Shown here piece by piece: positions 1 through 54,576 of a stretch of 64,000 nucleotides of DNA. The DNA lies in contig RSEH01000228.1 in the NCBI GenBank assembly GCA_006503475.1, positions 1 to 64,000 of the forward strand, read 5' to 3'. This DNA comes from Stentor roeselii (taxonomy: Eukaryota > Ciliophora > Heterotrichea > Heterotrichida > Stentoridae). How positions within the stretch are numbered: the first letter of the stretch is position 1; the number at the start of each line of letters is the position of its first letter. A program made the translations under genes and the position numbers. The notes under the pieces were generated by a model. The model was given only the letters and a program-made list of their open reading frames with translations. It searched no databases and was not told the origin of the DNA.

Positions 1-2322
1 TGACATGAAAAACAAGATTAACCAGAATAATGCATTTACTGCAAAGATGCATAATAAGACTCCTGAATTAAGGACTATAATATTAGTTTTATACCCGAAT
101 TTTATTAATTTTTTTGAAAGTTTAATACCTTGATTTTCTTCAACAAGATATTTGAAAGGATTTGGAATCTTTTTTTCAACTCTGATGCCTAAAATAAACT
201 CTCGAAGTATTGGATGCAATTCTAGATCCAAGAGATAGACTGAATATATCAACTCATTAGTGTTAACAAGATCGAAAAAACTGGATGAATCAAGTGAAAT
301 TAAAGACATTCCTAATGCTGATATATGCAAAGCGATGCTGATTTTGGAAGAAAATTTCTGCTGAGCACTCGCTTCATCTTCGAATTTCTGTTCAATCAAA
401 TCATATTTATTGAAATTTATTTTGGATTTGAATAGTTTTGTTGAAAGTTTAGATAGATGCACAGAAAAACAATCATTTTTCAATTTTACCTCAATTTTAG
501 AATCTTTAGCAATTTTTGATAATTTAGGCTCTATTCCGTATTTTTGTTTTCCATCAATTTTTACAATTTTGAACTTTACCTTCTTAGAATCCACCAAAAC
601 TATTAAATCATTTCGATTCAGATCTTTGAGCAAAGTTTCATTAAAAACAATCCAAAAAATGTAGGAATCTTCAACGTAAGATATTCCATGGAAATACTTT
701 TGAAGACATTCATCATTTTTTAGCATAAATCCAGGGATACACTCACAGTTTCCATTCACTAAAATGGTATTTGAAGTGCAATTCAAACACATGGAACTAT
801 TAATGCAACTAATGCATAGTTCTTGACATCTAATACATGAGTTTATATTGTTCAAAGATGAAATACTCCAAAATCCATCTTCACAAATACATTGTCCTTC
901 GACTAACTTTGCATTTAGTGCTTTGCATGAAGTGCAAAATGAGTAATTTTTGCATATTAAACAATCATCATTGCATTTCACACAGTCATTTGTGTTATTT
1001 TTGAAATAACCTGGACTACATTCGCATATTCCATCAATAAGGAAACTGTTTTTATCAATGCATTCTAGACATTCATTCAAAGAAGTGCATTTTGAACAAC
1101 CTATATTGCAAGGAATACAAATAATTGAAGGGTCCCCAAAATAACCTTTATCACATAAACAGATTTCTCCAACAGCAGAAGCATTTCCGACCATACACTC
1201 TAGGCACTGAGTATTCGAACATTTTTTGCATCCAATACCTTTAAAACAACAAGAATCATAAGAGTTTAGTGGAAGGACTCCATAGTAATTCTTCTCACAA
1301 TTACAGATTCCTGAATCTATAAGACTATGAGAACTTCTGCAAGTAAGACAAAGCCCTGATATATTACAACTGCTGCAATCTGATCTACAGCATTGATTAT
1401 TTATACTGAAGAAGCCAGGTCTGCATCTGCAAGCAACTATAGTATACGTAAAAGGAAAGACTGACTGCTTTTCAAAGCAGGTATTATTTGATCTATCATA
1501 ACCACACATGACCAAAGTCGAACTACAGTTATACACAGTAGTAACTGAGCAACCATACATGGAATCACATGTTTTTCCCAATGAGTCTTGTAAAGAATTC
1601 ATATTTGTTGGTAAGCATCCAATGCCAAGACTAATGTCAACGATTGCAGGATAACAGTAGCAAATTCCAGGAATTAAGCAATTTGACGCCCAATCATTGA
1701 GTAAATAACTTGAAAAATCTGGTTTACCATTGATGATAATAAAATTCCAGATAAAACCCTTCACAGCAGTGAAATGTGAGGCTGAACTGGTTCCAATGCC
1801 TGTCTGATATCCAGTTGCCAATGTTTCAAACAAACTTGAAATACTCATTCTTAGAATTCCATTTATAAATGCTTGAAAAACGTTGCCATCATAAGTCAGG
1901 GCTACAAATGACCAGATCCCAGCAGGAAAACTATCGGAAGGACCGACTTCTTCTAAAGTTTTATTATCGAATCCGATTAATAAATAAACAGCGTTTGAAT
2001 CTACCTTTCTTCCTAAAAAGTATCTATGATAAGTACTTAAACTTCTGTAGATTAAACGATATTGAGAGTTTTCAGGCATAATCCACATCAAGTAGGATAC
2101 TGAAACAGGCAACACAAGACCATCAGGAGTATTTATTTTACTGTCGTCAGTGGCCAGGTAAATTCCTCTGTCTGTATGAATTGTTGAGCCTTCTCCTGAT
2201 ATTTGGATGCCGTGATTATTGTTTCCTGAATAATCCCAAAACATTCGACCGTAATCAATCCCGAATCTATAGTCGACTATTGCAGCTTGGACAATAACCA
2301 AAAACAGAGAGAAATTCAGCAT
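1..2322 (-). CDS. LamG-like plus Cys-rich repeat surface protein, 3' end outside window
   Basis: An uninterrupted minus-strand reading frame of 774 codons runs from the ATG at 2322 to the window edge. It begins with a hydrophobic signal peptide (MLNFSLFLVIVQAA). Residues about 20-220 resemble a LamG/concanavalin-like fold (FWDYSGNNNHG, GIWSFVALTYDGN, FINGIL). Residues about 230-500 are many short Cys-rich repeats of the furin/EGF type (CNIGCSKC, CLECIDKN, CICEDGFW). A less Cys-rich region follows, and a hydrophobic stretch near the window edge (about residues 750-774) is probably a first membrane segment. This architecture is known from large ciliate surface proteins; the ligand is unknown. 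I infer an extracellular N terminus and a membrane-anchored C terminus beyond the window. No intron is needed. Confidence 0.85.
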   Translation of the reverse strand, partial: MLNFSLFLVIVQAAIVDYRFGIDYGRMFWDYSGNNNHGIQISGEGSTIHTDRGIYLATDDSKINTPDGLVLPVSVSYLMWIMPENSQYRLIYRSLSTYHRYFLGRKVDSNAVYLLIGFDNKTLEEVGPSDSFPAGIWSFVALTYDGNVFQAFINGILRMSISSLFETLATGYQTGIGTSSASHFTAVKGFIWNFIIINGKPDFSSYLLNDWASNCLIPGICYCYPAIVDISLGIGCLPTNMNSLQDSLGKTCDSMYGCSVTTVYNCSSTLVMCGYDRSNNTCFEKQSVFPFTYTIVACRCRPGFFSINNQCCRSDCSSCNISGLCLTCRSSHSLIDSGICNCEKNYYGVLPLNSYDSCCFKGIGCKKCSNTQCLECMVGNASAVGEICLCDKGYFGDPSIICIPCNIGCSKCTSLNECLECIDKNSFLIDGICECSPGYFKNNTNDCVKCNDDCLICKNYSFCTSCKALNAKLVEGQCICEDGFWSISSLNNINSCIRCQELCISCINSSMCLNCTSNTILVNGNCECIPGFMLKNDECLQKYFHGISYVEDSYIFWIVFNETLLKDLNRNDLIVLVDSKKVKFKIVKIDGKQKYGIEPKLSKIAKDSKIEVKLKNDCFSVHLSKLSTKLFKSKINFNKYDLIEQKFEDEASAQQKFSSKISIALHISALGMSLISLDSSSFFDLVNTNELIYSVYLLDLELHPILREFILGIRVEKKIPNPFKYLVEENQGIKLSKKLIKFGYKTNIIVLNSGVLLCIFAVNALFWLILFFMS

Positions 2323-4340
2323 TTATTACTAGTTATAAGATTATTTTAATTAGGTCAAGACGAGAAGTTTAGGTATATTTATTTACTAATATTGGCTGAT
2401 TTTATATAAACTTCCTTAGGATTAAATCCTTTTAAAATAAATAGGGATTCTTCTTATACTCGAAAATTAAATGAACCCTTTGTGATAAAATTAATATTGA
2501 AACCTTGTTAAAACTCAACTTGGAAATATATAATATATTATAAGCTTTTTCTTTAAAATTCACAAATTGAGGCAAAGATCTTTATGAATCAACTTATATA
2601 AAGTAAATTTTATAGTCTTTCAGTCTTTTTAAAATTTACTTTTTTCTTTAGTAATCCAGATTTAAGAGTTTATTTATCGGAAACTGATGAAAAACAGTCA
2701 ATAAGTTGAAAATAGCATTTACTTTGAATATATAATATATTCTGATTTTTTTCATTTTATTGAGCTCTTATACTTTTTCCATCCTGTTGGTTTAACTCTA
2801 TATTTTCCAACTATTTGAAAAAGTGATTGAATTTGCAGGGCTTGACAATCTAATTAATTTCGAATAAAGCATCAAACCCTGTTTAGACACGAAAAACATC
2901 TAAAAATTCTCAATCTTTCTAAGTAGTTTAAAATTAGTCTAAATAGAAGAAAAATCCATAACAGCCCAATATGTTTCCTCAGTGTCCCGAATTTCTGCAG
3001 TTTCTACCATAGAAGACGCGGACATATTAATCCAAATTATAAAGCAATTTTCACCAAGATCAATCTTGCGTTTGATTTGACTGGATCTTTATTGAGACAA
3101 ACTGATGAATATTACCGTTTGTCTTTGAATTGGCGATTTTAATATTCTAAATTTATTTTTATCTTAATTTGTCCGCATTTACTTAACTGATTGAAAATCT
3201 AACGGAAATAAGGACAATTAATAATTATTGTTCATATTTCCAAATTATCTGGTTCTGAAGTAAAAATTCAAAGAGAATAATAAACTGACAGATTTTGATC
3301 TGGATATTGCCGATTACTGGAACTGAACATGAGGATTCTTTTTAAGTGAATTAAGCTAGAATCTTTTGAATAAATGATTTATTATTTACCTTACCTATAA
3401 TTATATATAACGAGTCGTTTGCAAGAATGAACAGATAGCCATTCCTATCATTATTATTTTCTTCAATATATATTTTATATTTCTTATTAAACAGATAGCC
3501 ATTACTATCATTATTATTTTCTTCAATATATATTTTATATTTCTTATTATCAAGAAAAGATGCAAGCACGATATTTCAGACAGTTAAAAATTAAGGCCAA
3601 ACGATTTTAAGATCCAATTGAATGGACTTCAGAGTATTATAATGTTTACCCAAACCAGAGTAAAAAACTGGACCTTGTAACGAATGCTTATGATTTGTGA
3701 ACTCAATACAAGTTGAATATTCTGGAAAAAAAATCATCGCTGATGCAATGAGAAGGGTCAGTTTTCGATGGTTTGCATGATAATTTTGAAATTGTTTTAG
3801 TTTTTTCAAGTGAAGAATCCTTAATTTTTACATATACAGGATAAGAAAATTTAATTTTGAATAGCAGGGATGATTTAATTCTGGGTATATTAGTGTATTC
3901 AATCATATCTCAGTGGATTTTGTGAGTTTTTATTAATAATTTGTTTATCTTCCTTTTCTTTATTTCTATTTGTCCAATGTGCTAAATATATAAGGAAAAA
4001 TGTTTTCCAGTAGAGGGATGTGTGTTGCTGTAGCTACCGACTGGTAATACGCCTTCGTTATTTTTTTGATATTTAATTTTATAATTATTTATAGATGATT
4101 GAACTTTAATTTTAGTTCTTTGCTCTGGTTAACTTTATTAGGTTGGCTGAGTTAAACTTTAATTTGCATAGGAAAAATGGTTGATAAACATAAAATGGCT
4201 TAATTATTTTGGATAAGACATTAAAAGGGTTTTGGCTTGTCTGAAAACTCGAATATCAATAGTTTTTACTGATAAGTTTTAGTTTAAAATAACAGGATTA
4301 TTCACCAAAAATAATAATATTCCAATTTTAAGTCTTATAA
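2323..4340. other. Gene-poor interval, possible coding relics
   Basis: This 2-kb AT-rich stretch separates two divergent genes (minus-strand start at 2322, plus-strand start at 4341), so it includes both promoters. I see no convincing gene. On the minus strand between about 3351 and 3906 there are three overlapping open stretches in different frames, which could be a decayed gene; none matches a family I recognise. A 60-bp tandem duplication lies inside it (separate entry). Confidence 0.5.
3431..3550. repeat. 60-bp tandem duplication
   Basis: Two adjacent 60-bp copies (3431-3490 and 3491-3550), each starting ACAGATAGCCATT. They differ at one internal base (C versus A) and at the last base. 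Near-identity indicates a recent duplication. The unit is a multiple of three, and on the minus strand both copies stay open in one frame (peptide KYKIYIEENNND twice). Confidence 0.9.
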
Positions 4341-6339
4341 ATGGGATCCTCTGAATCACTGGCAATTCACCAATACTCGATTGAAGTTCCTGGAACGAAA
4401 AAGCCAGGTTCATCATCGATTTTTGTAAATCCCAAATCAAAAGCTTATCTATTATCAACTTGCAAGTCTGGAAATACTTTATATGAGATTTTCCATTCTA
4501 CTGCAGCACTCTACCCAGACAAACCGTATTTGGGGACAAGGGTAAAAGTCGGAAATATTTTCGGACATTATGAGTGGGTCACTTATTCTCAGGTAAGAAA
4601 TACAGTACAGCGTGTGAGTTGGGCTTTGGATAATTTGAATCTTAGTCAAAAAGATGAAGATGGAAATTCTTTTCTAGGAATTTATTCGAAAAATCGCTAT
4701 GAATGGATAGTAATGGATCTTGCTTGTATGAGCCAGGATATAATATCTGTGCCAATATACGAAACTCTTCAAAGCGATGCACTAGAATATATTGTGAATC
4801 AGACCAAAATGAAAGTTGTAGCTTGTGAAAGTAAAGGTTTAGATTTAATCCTGAAACTCAAGAGATCTGGTGAATTAAAATCCCTCAAGGTAATAATCAA
4901 CTTCGATAATATTTCTCCTGAAAATCAAGAAGAAATCCAATCACTAGATTTAAGTCTTTTCCTTAAAAGACCTTGAAAATTTAGTATCAAGTGGTTCAGA
5001 CAACCCTCCAGCGCCGACATCAGTATTCACAATATGCTACACCAGTGGAACGACAGGAAAGTCTAAAGGTGCGATGATAACTCACAAAAACTTAATATCT
5101 GTGATACTCGGTGCAAGTGAGCATTCATTACCATTGCTGCCTTCAGACATACACTTATCTTACCTTCCTCTAGCTCACATAATGGAGAGACTCGGAATAT
5201 TTAACACAACCTTCAGTGGAGCCTCAATCGGGTTCTTTCAAGGAGATCTTCTGAAGCTCAGAGAAGATCTGGCAGAGCTAAGACCAACCGTTTTCGGGTC
5301 AAGTCCACGAGTTTATTATCGTTTTTATGACCTGATTTCTCAACAGTTATTTAATTTAACAGGCCCCAAGCGTCTTCTTGTAAATCGTGCCTTAGAAGGA
5401 AAACTTTTTTATTATAGAAATCAAGGGACTCTTACTCATAAGCTTTGGGATTCTTTGGTTTTCAATAAAATCAAGAACTTGCTTGGCGGAAGAGTTCGAC
5501 TTATGGTCACTGGATCTGCTCCGATTTCGGCTGAGGTCATGGATTTTTTAAGAGTTGTGTTTTGTTGTCCTTTTGTTGAAGGATATGGACTCACAGAGTC
5601 TTGTGGATCTACTTGTCTCACTGTCAGCCAAGAAAAAACTGCTGGTATAGTTGGAGGGCCTGTTACTACTGCTGAGCTCCGAATAGAAGATGTACCAGAA
5701 ATGAACTATCTAAGCACAGATGTTGATGAAAAAGGAAATCCATGTCCTAGAGGAGAACTTTGTATACGAGGTCCAGTAGTTTTCGCTGGATACTACAAAA
5801 ATACTCAAATTACTGCAGAGACGATTGATTCTGAAGGTTGGCTTCATACTGGAGACATTGCTCTCCGATATGATTACAATGGTTCCTTCAAAATCATCGA
5901 CCGCAAAAAGAACCTCTTCAAACTGCAACAAGGGGAGTACATATCTCCTGAAAAAATTGAAATGGCCTACAGTAGAAGCATGTATGTTATGCAGATATTT
6001 GTGTATGGAGAGTCACTTCAGGCTTATTTAGTTGCTGTTGTCGTGCCTGATGAAGCCTTTGTTAGAAGAAACTGGGCAATTCACAATGGGTTTAATGACC
6101 AATCAAGCTTTGAAGATATCTGCAAGAGTGAACAGCTGAAAATCATTATTATGGAAGACATGAAAGAAAAAGCGAGGGATGCAAAGCTACTAGGGTTCGA
6201 ATTGGTGAAGAATATTTACTTGGAATGGAAACCATGGACTATTAATGACATCCTCACTCCGACCCAGAAATTGATGAGGTTCAACGCGAAAAAACATTAT
6301 CAATCAGTTATTTACGAACTGTATGAGAAAGCTTTATAG
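4341..6339 (+). CDS. Long-chain acyl-CoA synthetase (ACSL family)
   Basis: An AMP-forming long-chain fatty acid-CoA ligase, which activates fatty acids with ATP and CoA. Motifs in order: the AMP-binding P-loop YTSGTTGKSKGAM (around 5032-5076), the substrate motif GYGLTESCGSTC (around 5581), GWLHTGDIA (around 5839) and IIDRKKNLFKLQQGE (around 5893). The total of about 660 aa is normal for eukaryotic ACSL. The N terminus MGSSES fits a possible N-myristoylation signal, which would place it on membranes. The reading frame changes once near 4954-4970: codons from 4341 end at a TGA at 4974, while the rest lies in the +1 frame. Alignment logic (LKDLENL before the P-loop) suggests one surplus A in an A4 run; a 16-nt intron is the alternative. 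Family assignment is secure; the junction is not. Confidence 0.88.
4954..4969 (+). other. Frame discontinuity in ACSL: possible 16-nt intron or extra A
   Basis: GTCTTTTCCTTAAAAG is the only GT-AG segment that would join the two frames of the ACSL gene. It lacks the GTA donor and the A at position 10 seen in all six good introns here. Dropping one A from the A4 run at 4965-4968 also restores the frame and gives a more natural ACSL sequence. I favour the single-base explanation. Confidence 0.4.
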
Positions 6340-7529
6340 ATTAGTTTTATGATATAAATTTTAGTTAAGTTGAAAATTTATTATCTCATTCAGTTAATAT
6401 TTAAATAAATTTTAAACTATTCTAGTTATACTAAAATTTGTCTTAATTTAGAATGTATACTATTTATTACTAGGTCGTAAATCTAACTTTAGATCAATTA
6501 TCCTTCAAGCCCAGACAATAAGAATTTTTAAGTCTTTTGATTAATTTTAATGACAAGCCGCAATCCTGATTCGGTTGTTTAGTTTTAGAAAGATTCACAA
6601 AAACTGTGGATAATAATAAAGGATAAAAGGCTTTCACAATGATCTGACAGATGAGCTAAAATTTTATAGAAACCGAATAGAGAACTGCAAAAATATAAAG
6701 AAAAATATAGAAGACCTTGATAGAGTAGTAGACAGTCACACTGTAGAATATTGTAATTTATGAGATTTTTGTGTTTTAGCATGATTTTGAGTTTTCTTCA
6801 GAGTCACTCTCCCAAGATGATTAACATTGGCAATAGATTCAATCAACTTGCCACTATATTCTCATATTCCAACAATTATAAACATTTTATTCAATGAAAT
6901 TTCGATATTTTCAGTTGAAGAATAATTATAATTGATGGTATTTATAAAAATAAATACTTATATGTACTTTAAAATAAACATAAACAACTCATCTTTTTAT
7001 AATTTCAATGTGAATAGATATCGATATAATTTCATTGCAAACGATGGTAAAAATCATTTTATTGGATTAATATAATATTTTTTGCAGAATTACTTAATTA
7101 TTTTAGGTAAAGCTTCAGTCTAATTTATAGATTTTATCTACCGCCTAAACATAAACAAAAACATATTCTACGATGCGGTTTATTCATTTGTCTTTCTATC
7201 AGTTCATTCAAGCCATTCGAAATAACTAAATCCCTACTTGAACTACACAAGATAAGAAAGTAGTTATATGAATACATAGCTTGTAATTGTGAATTATTTT
7301 GTATTCTCAATATTTTACAATTTTCAAGTTCCTTTAAATCAAGTGCAAAACACTTCAGTTCTAATCGATGACGAGTGCTTGAATTAGCAGGTTTGTCTAG
7401 AATGAAACAATCTGGAAAGTAGGAATACATCTAACCTGCTCTAGAAGTTTAAATTGTTAGTATTCATAAAAATGTTCATTTATCAAAAAACTTTCTCTTT
7501 ACGATGATGGAAGATGCCTCAGTACAACC

Positions 7530-7860
7530 TTCAGCAAATTCATGAACTGTTCAGATGAATGTCTCACATGTAGAGGGTCTTTGAACAAGTCTGCCTCTCT
7601 ATAATAAAAATGTAATCAAACCTGCTAATGGCTTAGTTCTTATATAGATGAACTGTACATAGATCAGTACACTGTGCCAGAAAGGGATTACAGTGATTTA
7701 AGTCAGATCATTTGCCCTTCTTGCTAAATATCTAAAATACTCAGCTGATTAAGAGAATCGCTGTATTAGTTGTGGTGTGAACTCAAGAATAGTTGAAAGT
7801 GAATGTTTGTTTAATCATGGATTGTTTTTCTTTTATAACGCATGTGCTACTCAACCGTAA
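7530..7860 (+). pseudogene. Possible relic of a Cys-rich/RING-like gene
   Basis: Short plus-strand stretches carry regularly spaced cysteines: CSDECLTCRG near 7540, IICPSC near 7710, and RCISCG followed by SECLFNHG near 7760-7830. The spacing resembles zinc-binding RING or furin-like repeats of ciliates. The pieces are separated by stops and frame changes, so a functional gene is unlikely. The family is a guess. Confidence 0.3.
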
Positions 7861-8539
7861 AATTTGCAGCATAATCATTTGCAATACTTGAAAATGCTTC
7901 GTAAATTTTGTGGGGTAGGGTGATCTCTAGCGCGTTAAGGGGAACGGTAAATGGAATTCAATATAAAAATTTTAATGTTGCAAATGAATCTGACTGTAAA
8001 ATTTTCCGATTTCAAGTCATGCCTAAGTTTTCGATATATTTTCAGATCGTTTTAAAACTTTTGTCTGGTCCAAAAGTGGTTGTGGAGTGTTTCTTGGCGC
8101 ATGATATTTATCTGATATAATAAGACTTCCATAAGAACATCATTAAACACTGTAAATTCTGCTATAATATCTCTAGGTTCATTATAGTATGATTTATCTG
8201 TTGAGATCTACAATTTTAAGGCTTTGATAGAGCAGATCGCTTTTCTTTGATTACGAGCTAGCTAATCAAGTATTATAAAGATACCTGACATTCTATTTAT
8301 TTTATCCCGAATTAAATTTAATTAAGTCATCTCAGTTGTTGAAATATCCAAAACTTGTAAAAAAATTATTAAAGATTGGCTTTTTCTTGAGAATTTAAGT
8401 TGCCTACCTTTTCGATGAAGACTTTTAATTTTTTTGAATTCTTTTATTTACTAGCCTTAAAAATTAGAAATCTTGTTGATAAATATGTACAAAAATTACA
8501 AGAATCAAGTAATCTAGTTTATTTCATTTAACTGCATAA

Positions 8540-9950
8540 GTTTAATAGTTCAAAAAACCTAGATCTTTATTAAAATTTGAAAATAATATCTCCTGAAATC
8601 TGACATCATCTATTTCTAAACAAGTAACTTGAAAAGAAGTAGTTGGATAAGAATTTGAACTTAAGTTTGATTTGTTTTGGGTTTGCACATAGCTCAGCTT
8701 TAGAGCAGTTGACAAAAATTCGAATTGAGAACCTTTAGAAAGATTGGCTTATAGTTTAGATGATCAAAGATTTGAATCTTTCTGTGAGTAATAGTCATAC
8801 TCTTGCAAAAACTTATGGAAAAGTCTAAGATTTAATCTAAAAATTTCGAATTTACTAGAAACCATCTTTCATTCCAGGTCTTTACTGAATCCTTTGAATA
8901 AGTTGCAGAAACCCATCACTAAGCAGCTGGATGTTGATTCCATAAATGAAAGACCTTTTTCGAACTATTGAAAATCCCTTTGGCTATGTAAAAATGGATT
9001 AGTCTCATAATTAATCCCATCCTTTTCTATCATGCAATTTAATTAATGATCTTCCACAAATTACTTTGTTTTTCAAGTAAATCAGCATATCGACTGGCTG
9101 TAGCAGAAGAAGAAGCAATTAATTAAATCCGAGACTTCAAAAACATTCCTCATTTCAAGTTTCAGTTTGGTTACTGCCTCATAAGCCAAAGACAGCATAT
9201 TATAATTCACAAACCATTCATATTTCAACCCAGAGAGAACCAGCAAGTCCATCGAAGAGGGTCCATCTACTTGTCAGCTTTCTGTTCAAAACTCTCTAAA
9301 AATATTAATATCGAGTCCGTCCACACTTTAATTCATAATACTCCTCACTTTGCTTTGAAAATTTAACTGAAAGTAGATTCTCTTTTTAGATCACTAATCT
9401 TTGATTTTGATCGAGTTCGCTGTAGTCAGGAGTATGAGTTTCAGTAACTGAAGCAGGCCGCAAATGCGAATTAAACAAGATGTTATTTTGTATAATAAAC
9501 TTGAATAACTTAGAGTCATTCATAGTTCTTATGAAATTAATTATTTAGCTATGCTTACTTTATCTATAAACTAAAAACCTTTGAGAGCACTTTGAATGCT
9601 CTGAAAACCAAGTCGTTGAGGTCTTATTGAGAGAGTTTTAATAAGTAAGTTTATCAAGATTCTTAATTTTTTCTGATATCTCTTTGGCGTGGGAAAAGTA
9701 TTCAGCATAGAGCATGACCTTAGTGTGTAATCGGAGGATCAACAAGATAGATCTGAAGAGGATCTTCAAGTTATAAGGCAGCTAAACTTATCGACATAAT
9801 CTTGTTATTAGTTGATGAAGACGCCCAGAAGCGGAAGTCAGATTGTTTCTTCTTAGTGCGATTTATTGACAGCAGATTCTGGGTAAGACTGTGAGGACCT
9901 CATTATCCTTGTCTAGTGCTGACATGGTGAATGTAATGATGGTAATTAAC
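8540..9950 (-). pseudogene. Decayed protein-coding gene, family unknown
   Basis: On the minus strand, reading from about 9950 down to 8540, long protein-like stretches appear in alternating frames, for example MLYAEYFSHAKEISE (around 9705), NDSKLFKFIIQNN (around 9510), MDLLVLSGLKYEWF (around 9250) and FEIFRLNLRLFHKFL (around 8840). GC is higher than in flanking DNA. Stops are frequent, and at least one frame change is needed. I take it as a host pseudogene of a large helical protein; I do not recognise the family. Stops occur nearly as often as in random AT-rich DNA, so part of the signal may be chance. Confidence 0.4.
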
Positions 9951-10194
9951 ATTAAGGTCATCTATCTGCAAATTCTTTTAATTCACAACGTTAAGAGCTA
10001 GTAGAGGAATATTAAACTAATAATTAACTAATCTAAAATTTATAACTGCACTCCGGGTAGAGACTCTCCATTTTTTTGTAGAAGTTAGTCCAGCCCTCAC
10101 CTTCCTGAGGTTTTTCGAGTCTCTTGTTTTTCAAGTTCCAAACCTGCACTAAAGTTGCTGATACTATCTTCTATATCAATTACCTAAGTATAGT

Positions 10195-10345
10195 CTACGA
10201 TCTTCTTTTAAAGTTACACTCTTGGTTGAATGTTACCATCTTCCTTGAAGGTTACTGTCTTCGATATAGGTTACAGCCTTCGATGAAGGTTACTGCCTTC
10301 ATTGTAAATTACGATCTTCGATTTAGGTTACAATCTCAATCTTTC
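10195..10345. repeat. 19-bp minisatellite, about 8 units
   Basis: TTAC (CTAC in the first unit) recurs at 10195, 10214, 10233, 10252, 10271, 10290, 10309 and 10328, exactly 19 bp apart. The unit is approximately GGTTACNGTCTTCGATGAA. The CTTC-GAT-GAAG part of better-preserved units is an inverted repeat and could form a small hairpin. Units are diverged from each other. The array overlaps the 3' end of the B-box gene. Confidence 0.85.
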
Positions 10346-11004
10346 ATACCTATATGACCCATACAATAAAATAGGTATTTTTTATCATTTGAAATTAAAA
10401 GTTGCTGTGATTTTGACTGCAATTTAACGAAAGCCCAGTTTTTATTCACTTCCTCTAGTTTTTCTTCAAGATTCATTTGATTAAAAGTTGTCTTGATATT
10501 ACATTTCAATACATCTTCGCTTTTACTAAAAGACAGTTTTTTTGGTAAGTCTTTAGAGTGCAAGCCCCTGGTTTCTTCCTCAATAGAAGTGTTTGTGTGG
10601 AATGAAAATTCTTTTATATAATTTTCTAAATCAGAAATTTTTCGAAGATCAGAATAAGGGACCTGAAATTGATCCAAAGATTTGACATTCCTATTCAGCT
10701 GTTTTAAGGTTTTTATCGTCGATACAGTAGCATCTTTAATTACTGAAATAGCTCCCTTAGAATTTTCACTGACCCTTGAAATGTATTTCTTAATTTCTTG
10801 TTTTAAATCTCTAAAAGAAAGTTTTTCGATTTCTAAGTCATTTATAAACTCAACTTGGTGTTTTAATTCAATTGCGTGATGCATTCCGTGATTAGTACAG
10901 AATAAGATATTGGTCTTGCAGGTTTTACATATACATTTCGCTTCAACTTTACAGGGATTCAGATTGTTCCTTGACCCGCAGGACATATTTATAGACATAG
11001 GCAT
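10336..11004 (-). CDS. B-box-like zinc finger/coiled-coil protein, probably truncated
   Basis: A 222-aa open frame from the ATG at 11004. The N terminus (residues 9-50) has a Cys/His pattern like a B-box (CKVEAKCICKTC, FCTNHGMHH, then another His). Residues 55-200 are helical and Lys/Glu-rich, probably coiled coil. The last 25 residues (LLISNDKKYLFYC) look like the first strand of a WD40-type repeat, but the frame stops at once as it enters the 19-bp minisatellite. I infer a B-box plus propeller protein that has lost its C-terminal domain. It lies in an otherwise gene-poor island, so it may be a pseudogene. Confidence 0.55.
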   Translation of the reverse strand: MPMSINMSCGSRNNLNPCKVEAKCICKTCKTNILFCTNHGMHHAIELKHQVEFINDLEIEKLSFRDLKQEIKKYISRVSENSKGAISVIKDATVSTIKTLKQLNRNVKSLDQFQVPYSDLRKISDLENYIKEFSFHTNTSIEEETRGLHSKDLPKKLSFSKSEDVLKCNIKTTFNQMNLEEKLEEVNKNWAFVKLQSKSQQLLISNDKKYLFYCMGHIGMKD

Positions 11005-13704
11005 TAACCAATCAGAAATAAGTAATAAATAGGTTAAATATATTAAAGTCTAAGATAATTGATAGCCAAATGGAAAGGACCGATTTGAGTTTAAGAAACC
11101 TAAATTTGCAGTTGAAGAGTATTTCAATGAAAAAACCGATACTAGACTTTGAAAAATGACATAGAGATTCATAGGATCGATAATTTAAAGAGATATCAAA
11201 TATAAAAATCAAAATAGTTGCTAAGAGGTTATCAAAATCGGCCAGAACAGATCATAAGTACTTGAAATATGCAAATTTTGAGATTATTACCAAAATCAAT
11301 TTGAAGCACAAAATAATTTATATAATTCTCATATCTGTATAAAAATCTTATAAAATTAAACTCACGATAAGGTCTCTTTATCTAAAACCTAAAGTAATGA
11401 TTGAGATCTTCCAAGATTTCTTTGCGATATCATCGTTTCAACAAGATTTAGAAAACTTAATGCAAAAATTTAAACTTAAATAGAAGATTGAATTTAAATT
11501 AACTCCAATAATCACTCCCTCTCGTTGGAATCGAAAGGTAAAAAAATTCAAAGATTTCAAAAAGTTTTAAAGCAAAATCTTATCTACTTATTTCAATAAT
11601 TTTTTGTATTAACTTAAAACTTTTTTAAAATCTCTAAAATATTATTCATTGATTCGAACGAGAAATTCTTCTAGTTTTAATAAGTTAATAGAAGTAAATC
11701 TTTTATTAGTAAAGTAGATGGTGAGTGTTAGTTTTAAGTCTGTGAAGACTTATTTCATTAAAATAGAATTCTCGAATGAATTTTCTAACTTCAATAAAAA
11801 TATTGTAATATTAAATACTGAAATTATCATAAATTTTTGAATACTAAATATAAAGGGTAATTGTTGAAATGTTATATATGAAAACATAAATAGCTATATT
11901 ATTTTGTAGAAAAATATGGAGACTAATTGTTGAAAAAGTAGACATGAAAACAAAAAATGACTATATTATTTTGTAGACAAAATATGTAGCCCAATTGCTG
12001 ACATAGTTGAAATTAAAATACAAATTGATTCTATTATTTAAAATTTTGTAGATCTAAAATTGATTTTATTATTATGTAGATAATATTTCTATCCTGATTG
12101 CTGGTTTATTAGACATGAAAATTAAAATTGATCGATTATTTGGATCTTATAGGTATTGAATAAAGATCCACTCTTAAAATTATTATATTGATCTAAAGAT
12201 TAATTTGCTTTTGATTGAATAATTATCTACTTTCAATTCCAAAAGGACTTCTAAGTTTAAAAGATAATTAACTATTGTGAAATCCTTTGTTTGGTATGAT
12301 TTTTATAAATTTTTTTTTCTATTTTTTCTAGAAGAATATATGAATCTGTAAAATTAGATATTAGTATGAATTTCTCAGTGATTAAGTTGCATCTTGGAAT
12401 TGTTTATATTAAGGCTTGATTTCTTTGAATTAGATATTAAATTCTAGGATATTTGAAAATAATACCTCATTTAACCTAAATTACACAATTTGTAGTTTTC
12501 ATAGTATATTATTTAAAATTATTACAGAAGATTAAAATTTAGGAATAATATTTGAAAATAAATATTCAAATAAAGGTAAAAATTTAGCGAGGAGCAGTAA
12601 TATTTAAAGAAAAACTTAGATTATCATCAAATATTTAATAAAATATTAATATCATCATAGTGAGGCAAGTTTGTTTAATCTAAAATCTTCGATAATTAAT
12701 TGAATTCGAAATATATACTGAAGAAAAATATTCAGATAAAATTAAGTAATAAATAAGAATACACAACATTTAAAGATACTATGATACAATGCTCGAAACG
12801 TTCTTGCAACTTGTGAAAAATACTTAATTCATTAGTGTTTATTTACTGCTCAGCTTATTTTATCATGATTATATTTTGGATCTATAGAGTTTATGTTTTT
12901 CTTGTTTTGTTTGTATTAAATATATTTAGCTTTAAATCAACTTAAGTGTTTTTATTTACTTAATTGTTCTTTATTGCAGTTTCCAGTCACTTATCCTCAG
13001 CTAAAAGAATGGTTTTCTTACTTTTTTAAGATTTCAATGTGCAAGCTAGATCAAGAGCATTTTTCTGTGATTTTTATAATGATAAGAGTTTTTTTTCCTA
13101 CCAGTATCATTTAAATAAAGGTGTCTTTCAGGTAACTATCGAGATTCCTTTTGTTTAATTTTAAATAAAATTCACAAAATTTTACCTTCTGATTATCAGG
13201 CTGATTCCGCAATTTTCAAGGAATTATATATTTTATATTAAATATTGTTGTTGGGTTGTCTCCGACTGATCATAAGATAACTTTGACTTATGGAAGTAAA
13301 ACTATAAAACATTGCCGCATTCAAATCAGGGATATAATCATCACCTTGGACTTTAATATATTATTGAATGTATTATTGGTTATTAAACTATTCAAAAGAC
13401 TAAGTTGAATATTTTCACAAGGTTAAATTGAAAATTTTCAGTTATCAGTTTAAATAAAACTTTTCAACGCTAACCAACAGATCTCTGAAAATGAAATTGA
13501 AAGCAATTCTACTCCCTTAATAAGAAAGTCACTTAAATGTAAATTTATAAATAAACTAGCCCTAAACTTATCAATTTCTAATTAATTCAGATTGCTAGAA
13601 ACCTATACTGACAAAACTATCTCCAAACAAAAATTTCAATCTATTTCAATCAAAACCTAAATTCTTCTTATTTCAATAATCATTAAAAAATTTCGCAAGT
13701 TCAT
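11005..13704. other. Gene-poor island, right part
   Basis: These 2.7 kb are very AT-rich and contain no open frame that looks like protein. The only structure I see is the diverged ~66-bp repeat at 11859-12160. The last ~150 bp before 13705 presumably hold the promoter of the pseudokinase gene. Confidence 0.65.
11859..12160. repeat. Diverged ~66-bp tandem repeat, about 4 copies
   Basis: Copies start with AATTG(T/C)TG-like sequence at 11859, 11925, 11993 and about 12096, and include TATTATTTTGTAGA-like and GACATGAAAA-like blocks. Spacings are 66, 68 and about 103 bp; the long one contains an extra partial duplication. The region is noncoding and extremely AT-rich. Confidence 0.6.
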
Positions 13705-14799
13705 ATGAAAGACAATGTGAAGGGCAGCGAAACCGAAGACCTTCCATCGCCAAAGTTTCTTTCAACCCTTCTCGAATCCACTGAAACCCTAGACGAGTTC
13801 CAATCCTTTTCAATCTTCACAGATCTTTGCATAAATCTTTCGCCCTTACATCAATCCGGTTCAATCCACAGCAAGATAAATCCAAAGTCAATCGAGTTAT
13901 CCTTCCAACAACAAAAGCCATCAGCATTTCTTCCAAGTCCTTCAAAACACTTAGAACCAGGAGATGATCTTCAATATCAATCTCCAGAAGTATTAAAAGG
14001 TGGGCAGCCCTCATGTAAAAGCGACATCTGGTCGCTAGGAGTAGTTCTTTACGAGATGCTCCACGGCCACCCTCCGTTCCAAGGTAGAAGTGCGAGGCTT
14101 CTGGTACGGAGCATATCACAGCGAGGGTACTCCTTCAGCCCGAGTCTTTCAAATTCAGTAAAAAAGCTTCTTTGCGACCTTCTCACAGAAGACCCCAGCC
14201 ATCGTCCTAATGTGAAAAAAGTTCTTCAATATCAGTGGGTCCAGGACTACTTCTCACCCAAACTCAAAAAACATTGGCAAGTGCAACATGAAGACCTGGG
14301 AAATGGAAACATCGTCGATACCGTCGGAATGATCGTCATCGTCCAATTCGGTCATCGAGAAACAGAATTCATTGAAAACGAGTTGGTTCGTAATTCAATG
14401 ATCGTTGATGAAAACGGCAATATTTTTGTGGATAACTTAAAAAAACTCAAGGACCAAAAGGAAAGTTCTAAACATCTTTCAGTTAATCAATCGAAACTCA
14501 AATCTGCAATTAGGTCTGCTGGAAGCTCCAGGGCTAACTCGCCCACTGTGAGATTTGATTTGAATTTGAAAATTTTTGGAGATGAAACTGTTAAAAGTCC
14601 CACTTGTCGTAATAATAAACCTCCGAAAAGTCCAGCGAAGGAAGAAGTTAAAGTTTCTTTGAAGCCTCGAAGGGAAAGTCGACAGGACTATGAAGGAATC
14701 ACACTTTCTCCATGTCAGAGTCCAGTGGTATCGAGAAGGCTCTCGGCTCCTAGAAGCAGGTTTTTACAGAACTTTAGGGAAAATCATTCGAAGAGTTAA
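13705..14799 (+). CDS. Atypical pseudokinase lacking an N-lobe
   Basis: A 364-aa protein. Residues about 50-190 match only the C-lobe of a Ser/Thr protein kinase: YQSPEVLKGG replaces the APE motif (about residue 91), DIWSLGVVLYEML is the F-helix motif (about 107), and RPNVKKVL carries the conserved Arg. The position of the HRD/catalytic loop reads HSKINPKSIEL, so the catalytic Asp is absent; I see no DFG, Gly-loop or VAIK lysine. Catalysis is therefore unlikely. The C terminus is Ser/Lys/Arg-rich and probably disordered. No upstream exon with an N-lobe is apparent; the 5' flank is AT-rich. A scaffold role is inferred. It converges on the SIAH gene with a 10-bp gap. Confidence 0.75.
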   Translation: MKDNVKGSETEDLPSPKFLSTLLESTETLDEFQSFSIFTDLCINLSPLHQSGSIHSKINPKSIELSFQQQKPSAFLPSPSKHLEPGDDLQYQSPEVLKGGQPSCKSDIWSLGVVLYEMLHGHPPFQGRSARLLVRSISQRGYSFSPSLSNSVKKLLCDLLTEDPSHRPNVKKVLQYQWVQDYFSPKLKKHWQVQHEDLGNGNIVDTVGMIVIVQFGHRETEFIENELVRNSMIVDENGNIFVDNLKKLKDQKESSKHLSVNQSKLKSAIRSAGSSRANSPTVRFDLNLKIFGDETVKSPTCRNNKPPKSPAKEEVKVSLKPRRESRQDYEGITLSPCQSPVVSRRLSAPRSRFLQNFRENHSKS

Positions 14800-16997: not shown

Positions 16998-17053
16998 TAA
17001 TAATGGACTTCAGCTTGCCAGATTAAAGTCTATTGAAATCCTTTTATCTAAAT
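16998..17053. promoter_or_regulatory. 56-bp divergent intergenic region
   Basis: It separates the start codons of the 12-repeat protein (minus) and the EF-hand/IQ protein (plus). All promoter and 5' leader sequence for both must fit here or overlap coding sequence. I see no recognisable motif. Confidence 0.5.
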
Positions 17054-28050: not shown

Positions 28051-29268
28051 CTATTCGGCGAAGATTGCCTGGTATTCGTAACTTCCTGGACCTGGAGATT
28101 TTTCTTGGGATGCTTGAAGCTTTTCACTTCTGCTGAAACCCCATCGGGGACCAGTGAAGGTTTCACCTTTTTCGTATGTGCCTGGACCTGGCACTGCTTT
28201 TGAGTCTTTTTTCACTCGTGGCTCTGAACCGATCACCCACGCAGGTTCTTTTTTATCAAATTGTCCAGGGTTATATTTTCCAGGTCCCTAACTAAAAAAT
28301 ACAGGAACAAAATACCTTGGTTTAGCTTCATTTTTCATCCTTAAAGTATAACAAGGTCCATCATTCACCTTCCTAGCTTCATACGCCCCAGGTCCCGGAT
28401 TCTCAAATCCATTAACAACGAATTTCCTTTTACTAGACCCAATAACAACAGCTCGATTCCACTGACTTTTAATCAAGTAGCTCGAAGGTCCAGGGCCAGT
28501 TGAGCAAAGCTTGACATCTTTAGAGGCATTTCCAACAGTGAACCCTTTCGACGAGTTCAAATCTCTCGGAGAGTAGCTTCCAGGTCCAGGTCCCGAAGTA
28601 TTACTTCCACTTGTAGAAGGTCTCCGAGCAGTCATTGAAAATGCAGGCATTGAGCTGTCATTCAAATAGTTATAAGCCCCAGGTCCAGGGGAGTCAATCA
28701 TGGAAAGACTCAGTTTTTTCTCAGTGCCGACCTTCCAGTGAGGACCTGATTTTTCTTCTGTTGAAATGTTGTAGCTGCCTGGTCCTGGGTTTTCGTTTAA
28801 AGACTTTTTGGATCTTGATGCTTTTCCTATCGCGTAGGATGGACTTTTTGTTTTGGTTGTTAAAGAAGGCGAGTAGTCCCCTGGACCTGGCACCTTCGCT
28901 GGATAACTCTTGTCGAAGGTCTGGTTAAATGAAAATTGAGGGCCGTTAGACTGAGATGTTGACAGGTACCTACCTGGCCCTGGAGTCGCTTTGAAGGAAT
29001 GGATGTTGGACCTGGGAGACTTTCCTATTCTGAATGGAAATTACGTCGCTCTTGGGGATAACTTTGAAGAAGAGTTTGGAGAGTAAGACCCTGGACCTGG
29101 ATTTATCGTGATCGACTTTGCTGTTTTAGAGGATTTACCTATCATGCAACCTGGAGGGTTCTCTAAATGGATACTAGAAGGGTTATAAGCCCCAGGTCCA
29201 GGTACCGAGAATTTCTTATCAGGAAGTCGGCCTCCTTGAAAAGTCCAGGCAGGTTCTTTTTTAATCAT
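28051..29268 (-). CDS. SHIPPO-repeat (STPGR) protein, ODF3-like, two 15-nt introns
   Basis: Exons complement(29045..29268, 28303..29029, 28051..28287) give 395 aa. In-frame stops at both junctions disappear when two 15-nt GTA...AG segments are removed, and splicing restores perfect motifs (VPGPGKYNPG across 28288-28302; RATIGKSPR across 29030-29044). About 12 PGPGxY repeats span the protein, each followed by a short spacer with basic and aromatic residues. Human ODF3/SHIPPO1 and CFAP relatives with this repeat sit on axonemal microtubules, so a ciliary or cortical microtubule role is likely. It converges on the TPR/IQ gene with 30 bp between stops. Confidence 0.9.
28288..28302 (-). other. 15-nt intron in SHIPPO gene
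   Basis: GTATTTTTTAGTTAG on the minus strand. It contains the in-frame TAG that would end the protein; removal joins VP to GPGKY. A at position 10. Confidence 0.9.
29030..29044 (-). other. 15-nt intron in SHIPPO gene
   Basis: GTAATTTCCATTCAG on the minus strand. It contains an in-frame TAA; removal gives RATIGKSPR. A at position 10. Confidence 0.92.
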
Positions 29269-32269: not shown

Positions 32270-34444
32270 ATGATTCAAACAGATATCCTAAAAAACTTCG
32301 ACACAGGAAAACTCAAAGACCTGGAAACCCATCTCTCTAAAAACACCTTCGAAAAACCCTTTCTTTCCCAGGCTTTCTTTTTCTTGATGGAATCTCGGGA
32401 CTTTTCAAAAGACCACGAAGAAGCGATTGGCCTTTTGCTGCGCCATGGACTAGACCTGTCCTTAAGAGACAAGAACAACAAGAGCCTTTTGATGTTCTCT
32501 TGTTTTAAAAATCGTCCTGGCGTCGTGAAAATGTTAGTCGCTGCAGGAGCAAATGCAAGAGAAATCGATCGAACAGGGAAAACCACAGTCATGGTCGCTT
32601 TGAACACGGCAGGTCCTGACCCTTTAGAAAGTGTGAAAATTTTAGCAGAAAAAGGTGCAGACCTCTTCGCTGTTGATGCAGATGGAGCCACTGCTCTTCA
32701 TTACGCGGCTTATTCCGGTCATCATCATTCTCTTGACTTTCTTCTTAGGCAGGGCCTGCTGCCCAATGCGCAAGATCATGATAAGAACACGGCTCTTCAC
32801 TTCGCATTTCAAAGGGATAAAAAATTCTGCGTTGATCTTCTGTTAAACATCACGAACACAAGTCTTAAAAACACTTACGGCAAAAGCCCTTTGGATGATG
32901 CACACTCGAAAAGCCTTGCAAGTCTTAATCATAAAAAATTCGCAAAGGAAGAAAATTGGCATGACACAAGAAGAGGAAGAGGGAAAGGAAAAACTAGAGG
33001 ATTTACTAAGTTCAATGGAAGGAATGATAGGACTGAAAAATATGAAAGGCATGAAAACTTTGAAAAATCTGAAAGAAGGGAAAGGGTTGAGACTTTTGAG
33101 AATTTTGAAAAGGATTTTAGACTTGAAAGGAATGTACGTGAAAATAGTGAGAAAGTTGAGAAAAGTTTAGAAAAAAATGAGAAGGGTTTCGGTAAAAATA
33201 GTAGGGTTAGTGATTCTGCGTGTTTAAATTGCACGAGAGTTACTGAGTTGTTTTGTCTTGAATGTGCAAAGTTTATTATAGAAAAAAATAACAGTCAGAG
33301 TGTTAAGGAACTTGAATCACTGCTTGCCTTGGCAAGACAACATGAAAATGATCTGGAGAAAGAAAATCAGTCATTGAAAGAAACTATTCAAAGTAAGACA
33401 TTTCTTCCGAAGCCACGGTTAAATCCACTTTATCTGACAGATTTAGAAAATAAAAAGCAAGATCTGATCATTCACTGCCTGCAAAACGACATCCTAACAT
33501 TTATAACCGATCAAGAGCATTTCCTATCAAAAGTAAATCAACCCTACCAAGAATCCGTAAATCTCTTCAAATCACTAATCTCTGAATCATTTCCAGAGGC
33601 AAGTATCGAGGTCTTCGGTTCTTTTTCAACAGGTCTCCTTCTTCCTTACTCCGACATCGACATCGTGATAACAGGTTTACCCTCTCCAGTCTTTTCTTCA
33701 TTAACTCTAAAAGATCTAGGTCCAAAACTCGACTCTCAAAAATTCGTGATCCGTTCAGACAAGATCCTAACAGCGAGCATTCCAGTGATAAAGACATTAA
33801 TTCGCTACAAGGAAGAAACAATAAAAATCGACATAACAGTTCAAGAAGAAAAGCACAAAGGCATCCAATGTTCAAATCTAGTAAAAAAATTCTTAGGAAG
33901 CTTCAACACGATAAAACAAGTTTATTTAGTCTTAAAGCAACTGATGTTCTTTTGCAACTTTCACGAGCCTTATCGAGGAGGTATCAGTTCTTACGGTCTT
34001 TTCTTAATGGTTGTTTTCTTTTACCAGGAGCGAATGAAGGACTGGCGATTTAAAAGTTGTGATAAAGAAGGTAATTATTCCACAATATTTATTCAGTTCC
34101 TCGAGTTTTACCTTCAAAGTTTCCAGTTTAACAGAATGATCGTGATTGACTACGAGAACTGGGAAAATAAAGACTTAAAGCAGAAACCTGTACTTTTTAA
34201 ATAGATTCAAAGGGCTCTTCGCATTCCAGACCCTTTGAACCCAGGGAACAACGTTGCCCATAAAACTGATTTGGACTACTTTTGTGTAAGAAACATTCAG
34301 ACAATCTTGCAATGCGCCTATTCTTACATTTACAGGACTTCGCTTTGTGACTGCTCTGAATGTTCTAACTTCATCATCAAGATCTTATATGAAACAAGAC
34401 TCACTCTCCTCACGTATGACTCAGCAAGATTCCTCAGTAGTTAA
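32270..34444 (+). CDS. Ankyrin-repeat / TRF4-type non-canonical poly(A) polymerase fusion
   Basis: Exons 32270..34189 and 34205..34444 give 719 aa. Residues about 20-220 are ankyrin repeats (LLLRHGLDLSLRDKNNKSLL, GATALHYAAYSGHHHSLDFLL). A charged Lys/Glu/Arg linker follows (about 225-315), then a short Cys-rich CLNC...CLEC element and a coiled coil. From about 400 it is a nucleotidyltransferase of the Cid1/TRF4 class: FGSFSTGLLLPYSDIDIV holds the GS motif and two catalytic Asp (about 461-463), and KIDITV supplies the third (about 520). After the intron the family signature IPDPLNPGNNVA appears. Such enzymes add nucleotides to RNA 3' ends. The ankyrin fusion is unusual for the family as I know it. 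Confidence 0.88.
34190..34204 (+). other. 15-nt intron in poly(A) polymerase gene
   Basis: GTACTTTTTAAATAG. It contains an in-frame TAG; beyond it the frame continues with the conserved RALRIPDPLNPGN segment. A at position 10. Confidence 0.93.
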
Positions 34445-53360: not shown

Positions 53361-53687
53361 CTATTTACGAAGAATCTGGTAAAGACCTGTGATGCCCATA
53401 AACATATTCACTGCGAATAGGTTTAAAGATATCGGGTAGATCTGCGTCGAGTACCTGGACCACACAAAGCCTGTCATTGAAACTGCTGTTTGCTGAGGAA
53501 GTGAAATGTTTTGGGCTGGCACGTTCAGGTCTTTTATATTCGCGATCACGATGCCCCATTTAAACCAGGGACACCAGAAGAAGATAGTAAATGGTCCCTT
53601 ATCAGAAAGCATATAGTTCTTCATTCGCTCAGGCCATGGAAACCCATTTACTATCAACTTTTGAAGTTTAGGCACAATTCCAACCAT
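53361..53687 (-). CDS. MPC2: Mitochondrial pyruvate carrier subunit 2
   Basis: 108 aa, the full family length. It contains HWP-like PWPERMK, FFWCPWFKWGIVIANI, LPQQTAVSMTGFVWSRYS and NLFAVNMFMGITGLYQILRK, the conserved MPC2 blocks across two to three membrane helices. MPC1/MPC2 import pyruvate through the inner mitochondrial membrane. Its start is about 22 bp from the telomere-like repeat array, so that array lies in its promoter region. Confidence 0.95.
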   Translation of the reverse strand: MVGIVPKLQKLIVNGFPWPERMKNYMLSDKGPFTIFFWCPWFKWGIVIANIKDLNVPAQNISLPQQTAVSMTGFVWSRYSTQIYPISLNLFAVNMFMGITGLYQILRK

Positions 53688-53708
53688 ATTTATAAACTTT
53701 CATTCTCT

Positions 53709-53756
53709 TGTTAGGGTGTTAGGGTGTTAAGGTGTTAGGGTGTTAAGGTGTTAAAG
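53709..53756 (+). repeat. Interstitial telomere-like array, six 8-bp units
   Basis: Six consecutive octamers: three TGTTAGGG, two TGTTAAGG and one TGTTAAAG. The complement of TGTTAGGG is CCCTAACA, the telomere repeat reported for Stentor and Blepharisma. The G-rich strand is the plus strand, as at a right-hand chromosome end. A lone AAGGTGTTA occurs at 53784-53792. The array sits between the MPC2 and aquaporin starts. Confidence 0.85.
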
Positions 53757-53844
53757 TCTAAAATCTTTATTTTACTGAATTTTTAAGGTGTTATCAATTT
53801 TAAAGATTTTGTTATTCACACTTAAATTGTGGTAGAAAAAATAA

Positions 53845-54576
53845 ATGTGGCATCGAGTCTTCGGAGAAGCGATCGGAACATTTATCTTCGCTTTTATCTT
53901 AGCAGCAGCTGACAATTCCGAGATATTCACAGGGAACTCAGGACATCCATTTGCGACAGGTGGAGGTGCGATAATTATAATGATGTTAGCAGGTTTTTCA
54001 GCAGATCCTCACTTGAACCCAGCAATCACTTTAGGTCATTTAGTTCGTCATTTACTGTACAAGTCTCCATCAGCGATGGCTTTTATCGAGCACTTTTTGA
54101 TAATTTTTGTTCAATTCGCATCAGCAATGCCAGGGGCGTACCTTGGATGGGGACTTAACCGAACATTGACTTACTTCGAGCCTACTTACGAGTCAACTAA
54201 TAACCAGGCCTTTGGAGCTGAATTCGTATTTAGTGCTTTGATAACAACTGTCGCGTTAATGATTGGAAAAACGAAAGACTCTCGGATTTTAGGATGTGTT
54301 GTGTTAGGAGCTGCTTATTTCGCAGGTGTCATGTGTGTGAGTTATTATAGTGGAGCTTGCTTTAACCCGGCACTGGGACTTGCTTTGAACACTGTGAAGT
54401 ATACTGAAAGTGGACATCATATTAAAAAGACCTGGATTTATATCTTTGCTCCGTTTTTAGGAGGAGTCACTGGTGGTATTATGAACTCTATCTTTTTAAT
54501 TGGATCGAAAGAAGAAGTCGCTTTCAGTGATGATGAAGATGCTTATGACGTGTTGAAACTTAAGCTGAGTGGTTAA
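53845..54576 (+). CDS. Aquaporin/MIP-family channel
   Basis: 243 aa with six hydrophobic segments and the two family boxes: NPAITLG (about residue 58) and NPALGLA (about 174), the pore NPA motifs, plus the N-terminal EAIGTFIFAFILAA. Water or small-solute transport is expected; the selectivity filter cannot be assigned by eye. An acidic C-terminal tail (SDDEDAYDVLK) may regulate it. It starts about 90 bp downstream of the telomere-like array. Confidence 0.93.
   Translation: MWHRVFGEAIGTFIFAFILAAADNSEIFTGNSGHPFATGGGAIIIMMLAGFSADPHLNPAITLGHLVRHLLYKSPSAMAFIEHFLIIFVQFASAMPGAYLGWGLNRTLTYFEPTYESTNNQAFGAEFVFSALITTVALMIGKTKDSRILGCVVLGAAYFAGVMCVSYYSGACFNPALGLALNTVKYTESGHHIKKTWIYIFAPFLGGVTGGIMNSIFLIGSKEEVAFSDDEDAYDVLKLKLSG

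Follow-up and report, generated by a model that had tools for sequence, protein, structure and literature searches.

A telomere-like octamer array between divergent MPC2-like and aquaporin-family genes in a contig of the ciliate Stentor roeselii

Results

We analyzed positions 1 to 64,000 of the forward strand of contig RSEH01000228.1 from the heterotrich ciliate Stentor roeselii (assembly GCA_006503475.1); this whole stretch of 64,000 nucleotides is called the window in the following. The subject is an array of telomere-like octamers in the spacer between two divergently oriented genes, one encoding an MPC2-like mitochondrial pyruvate carrier (MPC) protein and the other a protein of the aquaporin family (Table 1). 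The names of both genes had been proposed in an initial annotation made from the sequence alone, and they are backed by Pfam and PDB matches. For the MPC2-like protein, seven PDB sequences were matched, six of which are named MPC2 (best E value 3.7e-22) and one is MPC1-like (E 3.6e-5), and the aquaporin-family protein gave a weak match to one sequence, aquaporin 1 (E 1.8e-5). A search of viral contigs, made with the MPC2 protein alone, yielded five pattern matches and no relatives.

Table 1. Coordinates of the array, its flanks and the adjacent genes (positions in the window)
Feature	Position	Strand	Remarks
Octamer array	53709-53756	+	Six head-to-tail units, TGTTA(G/A)(G/A)G; G-rich strand runs 5' to 3' toward the aquaporin gene
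Three unit lengths between array and possible relic	53757-53780	+	5, 5 and 6 mismatches of 8; without visible octamer similarity
TTAAGGTGTTA, exact 11-mer of the array, possible relic	53783-53793	+	Same 8-bp register; unit boundaries at 53781 and 53789
10-bp perfect inverted repeat around the possible relic unit	53760-53769 / 53801-53810		As a fold not significant
MPC2-like mitochondrial pyruvate carrier gene	53361-53687	-	108 aa; Pfam MPC, E 1e-27
Aquaporin-family (MIP) gene	53845-54576	+	243 aa; Pfam MIP/aquaporin, E 1.6e-14
Divergent spacer holding the array	53688-53844		157 bp
Upstream ATG, out of frame	53701-53703	-	16 nt before the MPC2 ATG, between the ATG and the array

The array units start at 53709, 53717, 53725, 53733, 53741 and 53749 and read, in this order, TGTTAGGG, TGTTAGGG, TGTTAAGG, TGTTAGGG, TGTTAAGG and TGTTAAAG. 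The intact unit is present in three of the six positions, and the other three units carry one or two changes each, with a total of four mismatches, all of them G-to-A at positions 6 and 7. The variant TGTTAAGG is common to two units. Six adjacent octamers with only three intact units had been reported in the initial annotation, and unit-by-unit reading confirmed both counts. The distances given there, 22 bp to the MPC2 start and about 90 bp to the aquaporin start, agree with the gaps of 21 bp to the MPC2 ATG (its A at 53687) and 88 bp to the aquaporin ATG (at 53845).

Exact copies of TGTTAGGG occur three times in the window, always inside the array. This count by itself is not striking, as at least three copies were reached in 6 of 100 shuffles. 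When a dimer of TGTTAGGG was searched with up to three mismatches, five matches were found, all in the array and all on the plus strand, compared with a mean of 0.18 in shuffles, none of which (0/100) reached five. Tandem Repeats Finder assigned to the array a period of 8 with 5.6 copies, 91% matches and a score of 76, and also a period of 24 with a score of 85. For periods of 4-12, the runner-up real array in the window scored 48, and the best score in 60 windows simulated with an order-3 Markov model was 52. The array is the strongest short-period tandem repeat of the window, well beyond chance.

To the right of the array, its 11-mer TTAAGGTGTTA recurs exactly and in register. Of 5000 shuffles of the 88 bp adjoining the array, 4 shared a word of at least 11 nt with the array, and of 1219 88-mers sampled from positions 1-53600, none did; by hand arithmetic, the agreement in register contributes a further factor of about 8. 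Because of this recurrence in register, the array may once have been longer, and the 11-mer may be its relic. The 11-mer is compatible with a longer array that decayed as well as with a separate single element.

Two structural candidates were discarded. The 10-bp inverted repeat around the possible relic unit was set aside as an insertion mark after a folding test, in which 14 of 200 shuffles of 53705-53815 folded at least equally well. The DNA folding of this region had a z value of -1.6; its main hairpin falls outside the array, which itself contains one stem of 4 bp. A G-quadruplex was also rejected, as three GGG runs are left (units 1, 2 and 4), one short of a three-layer intramolecular quadruplex.

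In the initial annotation, the unit had been equated with the heterotrich telomere repeat. This is correct for Blepharisma, the telomere repeats of which are, in the part of the genome report that was accessible (PMC9942806), permutations of CCCTAACA, the reverse complement of TGTTAGGG; for S. roeselii it is only likely. A Stentor telomere unit was not found named in the literature searched, with the Stentor genome paper out of reach. The window itself shows heterotrich traits. Six candidate introns of 15 nt, each of which reopens a reading frame, were found at 28288, 29030, 31292 and 46394 on the minus strand and at 34190 and 37046 on the plus strand, and all six have an A at position 10. In Stentor coeruleus, 90.9% of the introns have this length and carry the branch-point A at position 10 (PMC9505925, accessible part). 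The number of candidates is weak when taken alone, as lengths of 12, 18 and 21 gave four each. The 35 open reading frames (ORFs) of the window end with TAA (20), TAG (9) or TGA (6), and at least two of these ends (28288 and 31292) lie inside proposed introns. Stentor uses the standard genetic code, and introns and stops fit a Stentor-like heterotrich with this code. Together, the match to the Blepharisma unit and these traits of the window make "telomere-like" a fair description.

The spacer was compared with the other divergent gaps of the window. There are seven, with lengths of 27, 28, 61, 141, 157, 2700 and 2768 bp. Six of the 35 ORFs lack an ATG at the listed start and were excluded from the spacer and upstream-region counts; for this reason the 2768-bp gap is inflated (one excluded ORF starts at 17033, 35 bp from its neighbor). 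The 2700-bp gap falls in the gene-poor left part. Three divergent spacers measure only 27, 28 and 61 bp, so that an insert could be accommodated in the 157 bp between MPC2 and the aquaporin. The two shortest spacers contain no such block and suffice nevertheless, which suggests that the array would not be needed merely as room for promoters.

A recruited promoter element was among the readings offered in the initial annotation. In this case the array would serve the transcription of MPC2, or of both genes, through a telomere-repeat-binding factor, e.g. of the Myb type, on its GGTGTTA repeats; we regard this as quite unlikely. The plant TRB proteins, which bind telo boxes, could serve as a model, and yeast Tbf1 binds TTAGGG in promoters. 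With its place 22-69 nt upstream of the MPC2 ATG, the array probably falls in the core promoter, and six GGTGTTA copies are unbroken in the spacer, five within the array and one at 53787. In plant translation-related genes, most telo boxes of the 5'-flank lie between -50 and +50 of the transcription start, according to the accessible part of PMC3022908. The restriction of all four unit changes to positions 6 and 7 also speaks for an element, but, if all changes are G-to-A, it has a chance of about 0.05 by hand arithmetic, which is weakened further by the variants shared between units. Constraint on GGTGTTA was not significant in this hand arithmetic.

The distribution of related motifs argues against such an element. 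TGTTARGG was found seven times in the window, five times in the array, twice in ORFs (the coding set of 35 ORFs makes up 72% of the window) and not once in other intergenic sequence. When 29 upstream regions were read toward their genes, CCCTAA was present in one, that of MPC2 itself, and TAACAC in two, MPC2 included. Among the six-mers with an excess in the 29 upstream regions were TAGGTT at the top (4/29 versus 0.62 expected), CCTTAA (4/29, MPC2 included, versus 0.91) and AACCCT (4/29 versus 0.95), but they were given no weight, because many words were tested and no correction was applied. The counts of TGTTARGG and CCCTAA contradict a promoter motif shared within the window, whereas a role at this one locus is possible; positive evidence for a role of the array in transcription did not emerge from the sequence. 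The plant promoter telo boxes described in PMC3022908 are, like the array, telomere-unit sequences just upstream of a gene. However, as far as that source goes, they are short motifs common to many co-regulated genes, whereas the array stands alone in its 64 kb. The upstream ATG gives a weak hint that the MPC2 mRNA may start past the array. Of the 35 ORFs, 27 entered this comparison, and among the 26 besides MPC2, 4 likewise have an ATG at most 30 nt upstream.

Several features elsewhere in the window were recorded. The left part (1-14000) is comparatively AT-rich (GC 26-32% in all but one of seven 2-kb bins) and has fewer long ORFs, and in the rest of the window GC is mostly 33-43%, with three bins below 30%, so that composition shifts near 13.7 kb. 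Close to this shift lies a protein kinase ORF (13705-14799), the best match of which begins at position 85 of the 263-position profile, so that the N-terminal part is either absent or located upstream. An AMP-binding (acyl-CoA synthetase-like) gene at 4341-6339 occupies two frames, which switch near 4950-5000, and a 15-nt intron was not found there; a frameshift, a pseudogene or a sequence error would each account for the change. The AT-rich left part contains a tandem pair of a 60-bp unit at 3403-3549 (98% matches for 3430-3549). At 11858-12039, a 66-68-bp unit is repeated in tandem with 2.1-2.4 copies. Scans for tRNAs and with Rfam gave no matches.

Discussion

The array is probably a short interstitial telomeric sequence (ITS), i.e. 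an insertion scar that is partly decayed, although our confidence in this reading is limited. Genes flank the array on both sides in the window, so that its position is internal, as expected for a short ITS. Judged by the sequence criterion for short ITSs in PMC7215372, which was made for a hexamer, the six units with their four mismatches in all qualify. The following course of events would explain the locus. A double-strand break would have occurred in the germline spacer between the MPC2 and aquaporin genes, telomere repeats would have been added at the break, probably by telomerase, and the ends would have been rejoined. The array would then have decayed by G-to-A changes, perhaps together with copying by slippage, and would now be mainly tolerated spacer DNA. 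Insertion at a break would account for units that all run head to tail in one direction, and decay of a longer array would account for the in-register 11-mer. It is the telomerase origin, the greater former length and the lack of an essential role that we infer. Of the four readings put forward in the initial annotation, the scar of a former telomere addition is the best supported, short of proof.

Similar sequences have been described. The short ITSs of human and horse (PMC7215372, accessible part) likewise are internal and comprise few units of the telomere type, and their older copies have decayed. The array in S. roeselii, with its one head-to-tail orientation, differs from them in its octamer unit of a heterotrich type. 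In ciliate macronuclear genomes, internal telomeric repeats have been counted, 36 in Stylonychia lemnae and 39 in Oxytricha trifallax (PMC7285179, accessible part). These are also telomere-unit repeats inside macronuclear DNA with few copies per genome; in contrast to them, the array described here has degenerate units and belongs to a stretch with several genes.

Several observations weigh against an ITS. The 24 bp between the array and the possible relic retain no octamer similarity, and the unit length directly left of the array has mismatches at 6 of 8 positions, so that no in-register flanking bases are seen. The telomere likeness rests on the unit of Blepharisma and not on this species' own telomere. 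Furthermore, arrays of the octamer occur in prokaryotic and viral sequences: at least four exact TGTTAGGG units were found in 15 stretches of prokaryotic genomes, which belong, by accession, to 11 assemblies, and three units are present in four viral-contig stretches, with identical flanks in L002 and L004. Three permuted octamers were found in 3, 2 and 0 stretches of the viral collection, and the TGTTAGGG unit is therefore not special there. These prokaryotic and viral arrays show that the octamer can form without a telomere, and an ordinary microsatellite thus stays the main rival. Slippage would have extended a TTAAGGTGTTA-like seed that arose by chance, and the likeness to a telomere would be coincidental; the variant that two array units have in common is in line with slippage. 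We consider this explanation unlikely, yet serious. Against it stand the absence of any other array with a period of 4-12 and such strength from the 64 kb, and the size of the prokaryotic collection, in which 257 billion bases yielded only 15 stretches. In addition, a random octamer has, by composition, a probability of about 1.7e-4 of equaling the telomere unit in some rotation or strand, and the match was obtained in a class in which one known telomere, that of Blepharisma (PMC9942806, accessible part), has this unit.

One piece of a bacterial metagenome-assembled genome contig (L015, 2859-2952; 64% GC) ends, seemingly at the contig end, in 11 exact TGTTAGGG units. The assembly may have broken there in an octamer array of the bacterium itself.

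The array could also mark a present or past chromosome end. It might be an alternative telomere addition site in some macronuclear copies, or an old capped end that was joined to broken DNA on the aquaporin side. In Blepharisma, 46,705 potential alternative telomere addition sites were reported, of which 38,686 are backed by one read each, and a telomere was present on one HiFi read in eight (PMC9942806, accessible part). The octamer unit is the same, the ciliate class apparently so as well, and the G-rich strand of the array is directed outward from the MPC2 side. However, the Blepharisma sites are, in that source, mapping positions of telomere-bearing reads, and the uncut sequence needs no array. 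Such reads at internal positions are usually a minority, whereas here the units are part of an assembled sequence that continues into the next gene. The array is accompanied by no facing run of the CCCTAA type, and its degenerate units are unlike a fresh telomere; we see hardly any chance for an addition site or a joined capped end. The old fusion considered in the initial annotation is not supported in its two-telomere form, in which TTAGGG-type runs would face CCCTAA-type runs, given the single orientation of all five dimer matches, whereas one telomere joined to a broken end would be compatible with it. An assembly artefact, which would have joined a telomere-capped fragment to other DNA, is extremely improbable, as a captured telomere read should show near-perfect units and not the G-to-A changes and the in-register 11-mer further right.

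There is also a slim chance of a more consequential history: a telomere insertion may have turned regulatory, with a heterotrich telomere-binding protein on the GGTGTTA repeats jointly setting the expression of MPC2 and the aquaporin, which would link telomere state to energy or osmotic genes. More boldly, a somatic capped end may have been rejoined into the germline.

A short ITS is a known sort of feature, here in a somewhat unusual place. An account of such an array in a heterotrich promoter was not found in the literature titles and abstracts searched, with subscription journals mostly beyond reach. One array by itself proves neither telomerase marks in the germline nor regulatory use; a genome-wide tally of such arrays, together with any enrichment at promoters, would bear on both. 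If the array is indeed a short ITS, it would be one trace of the insertion of telomere repeats in a heterotrich; among heterotrichs, telomeres can be added to macronuclear DNA very frequently, as in Blepharisma.
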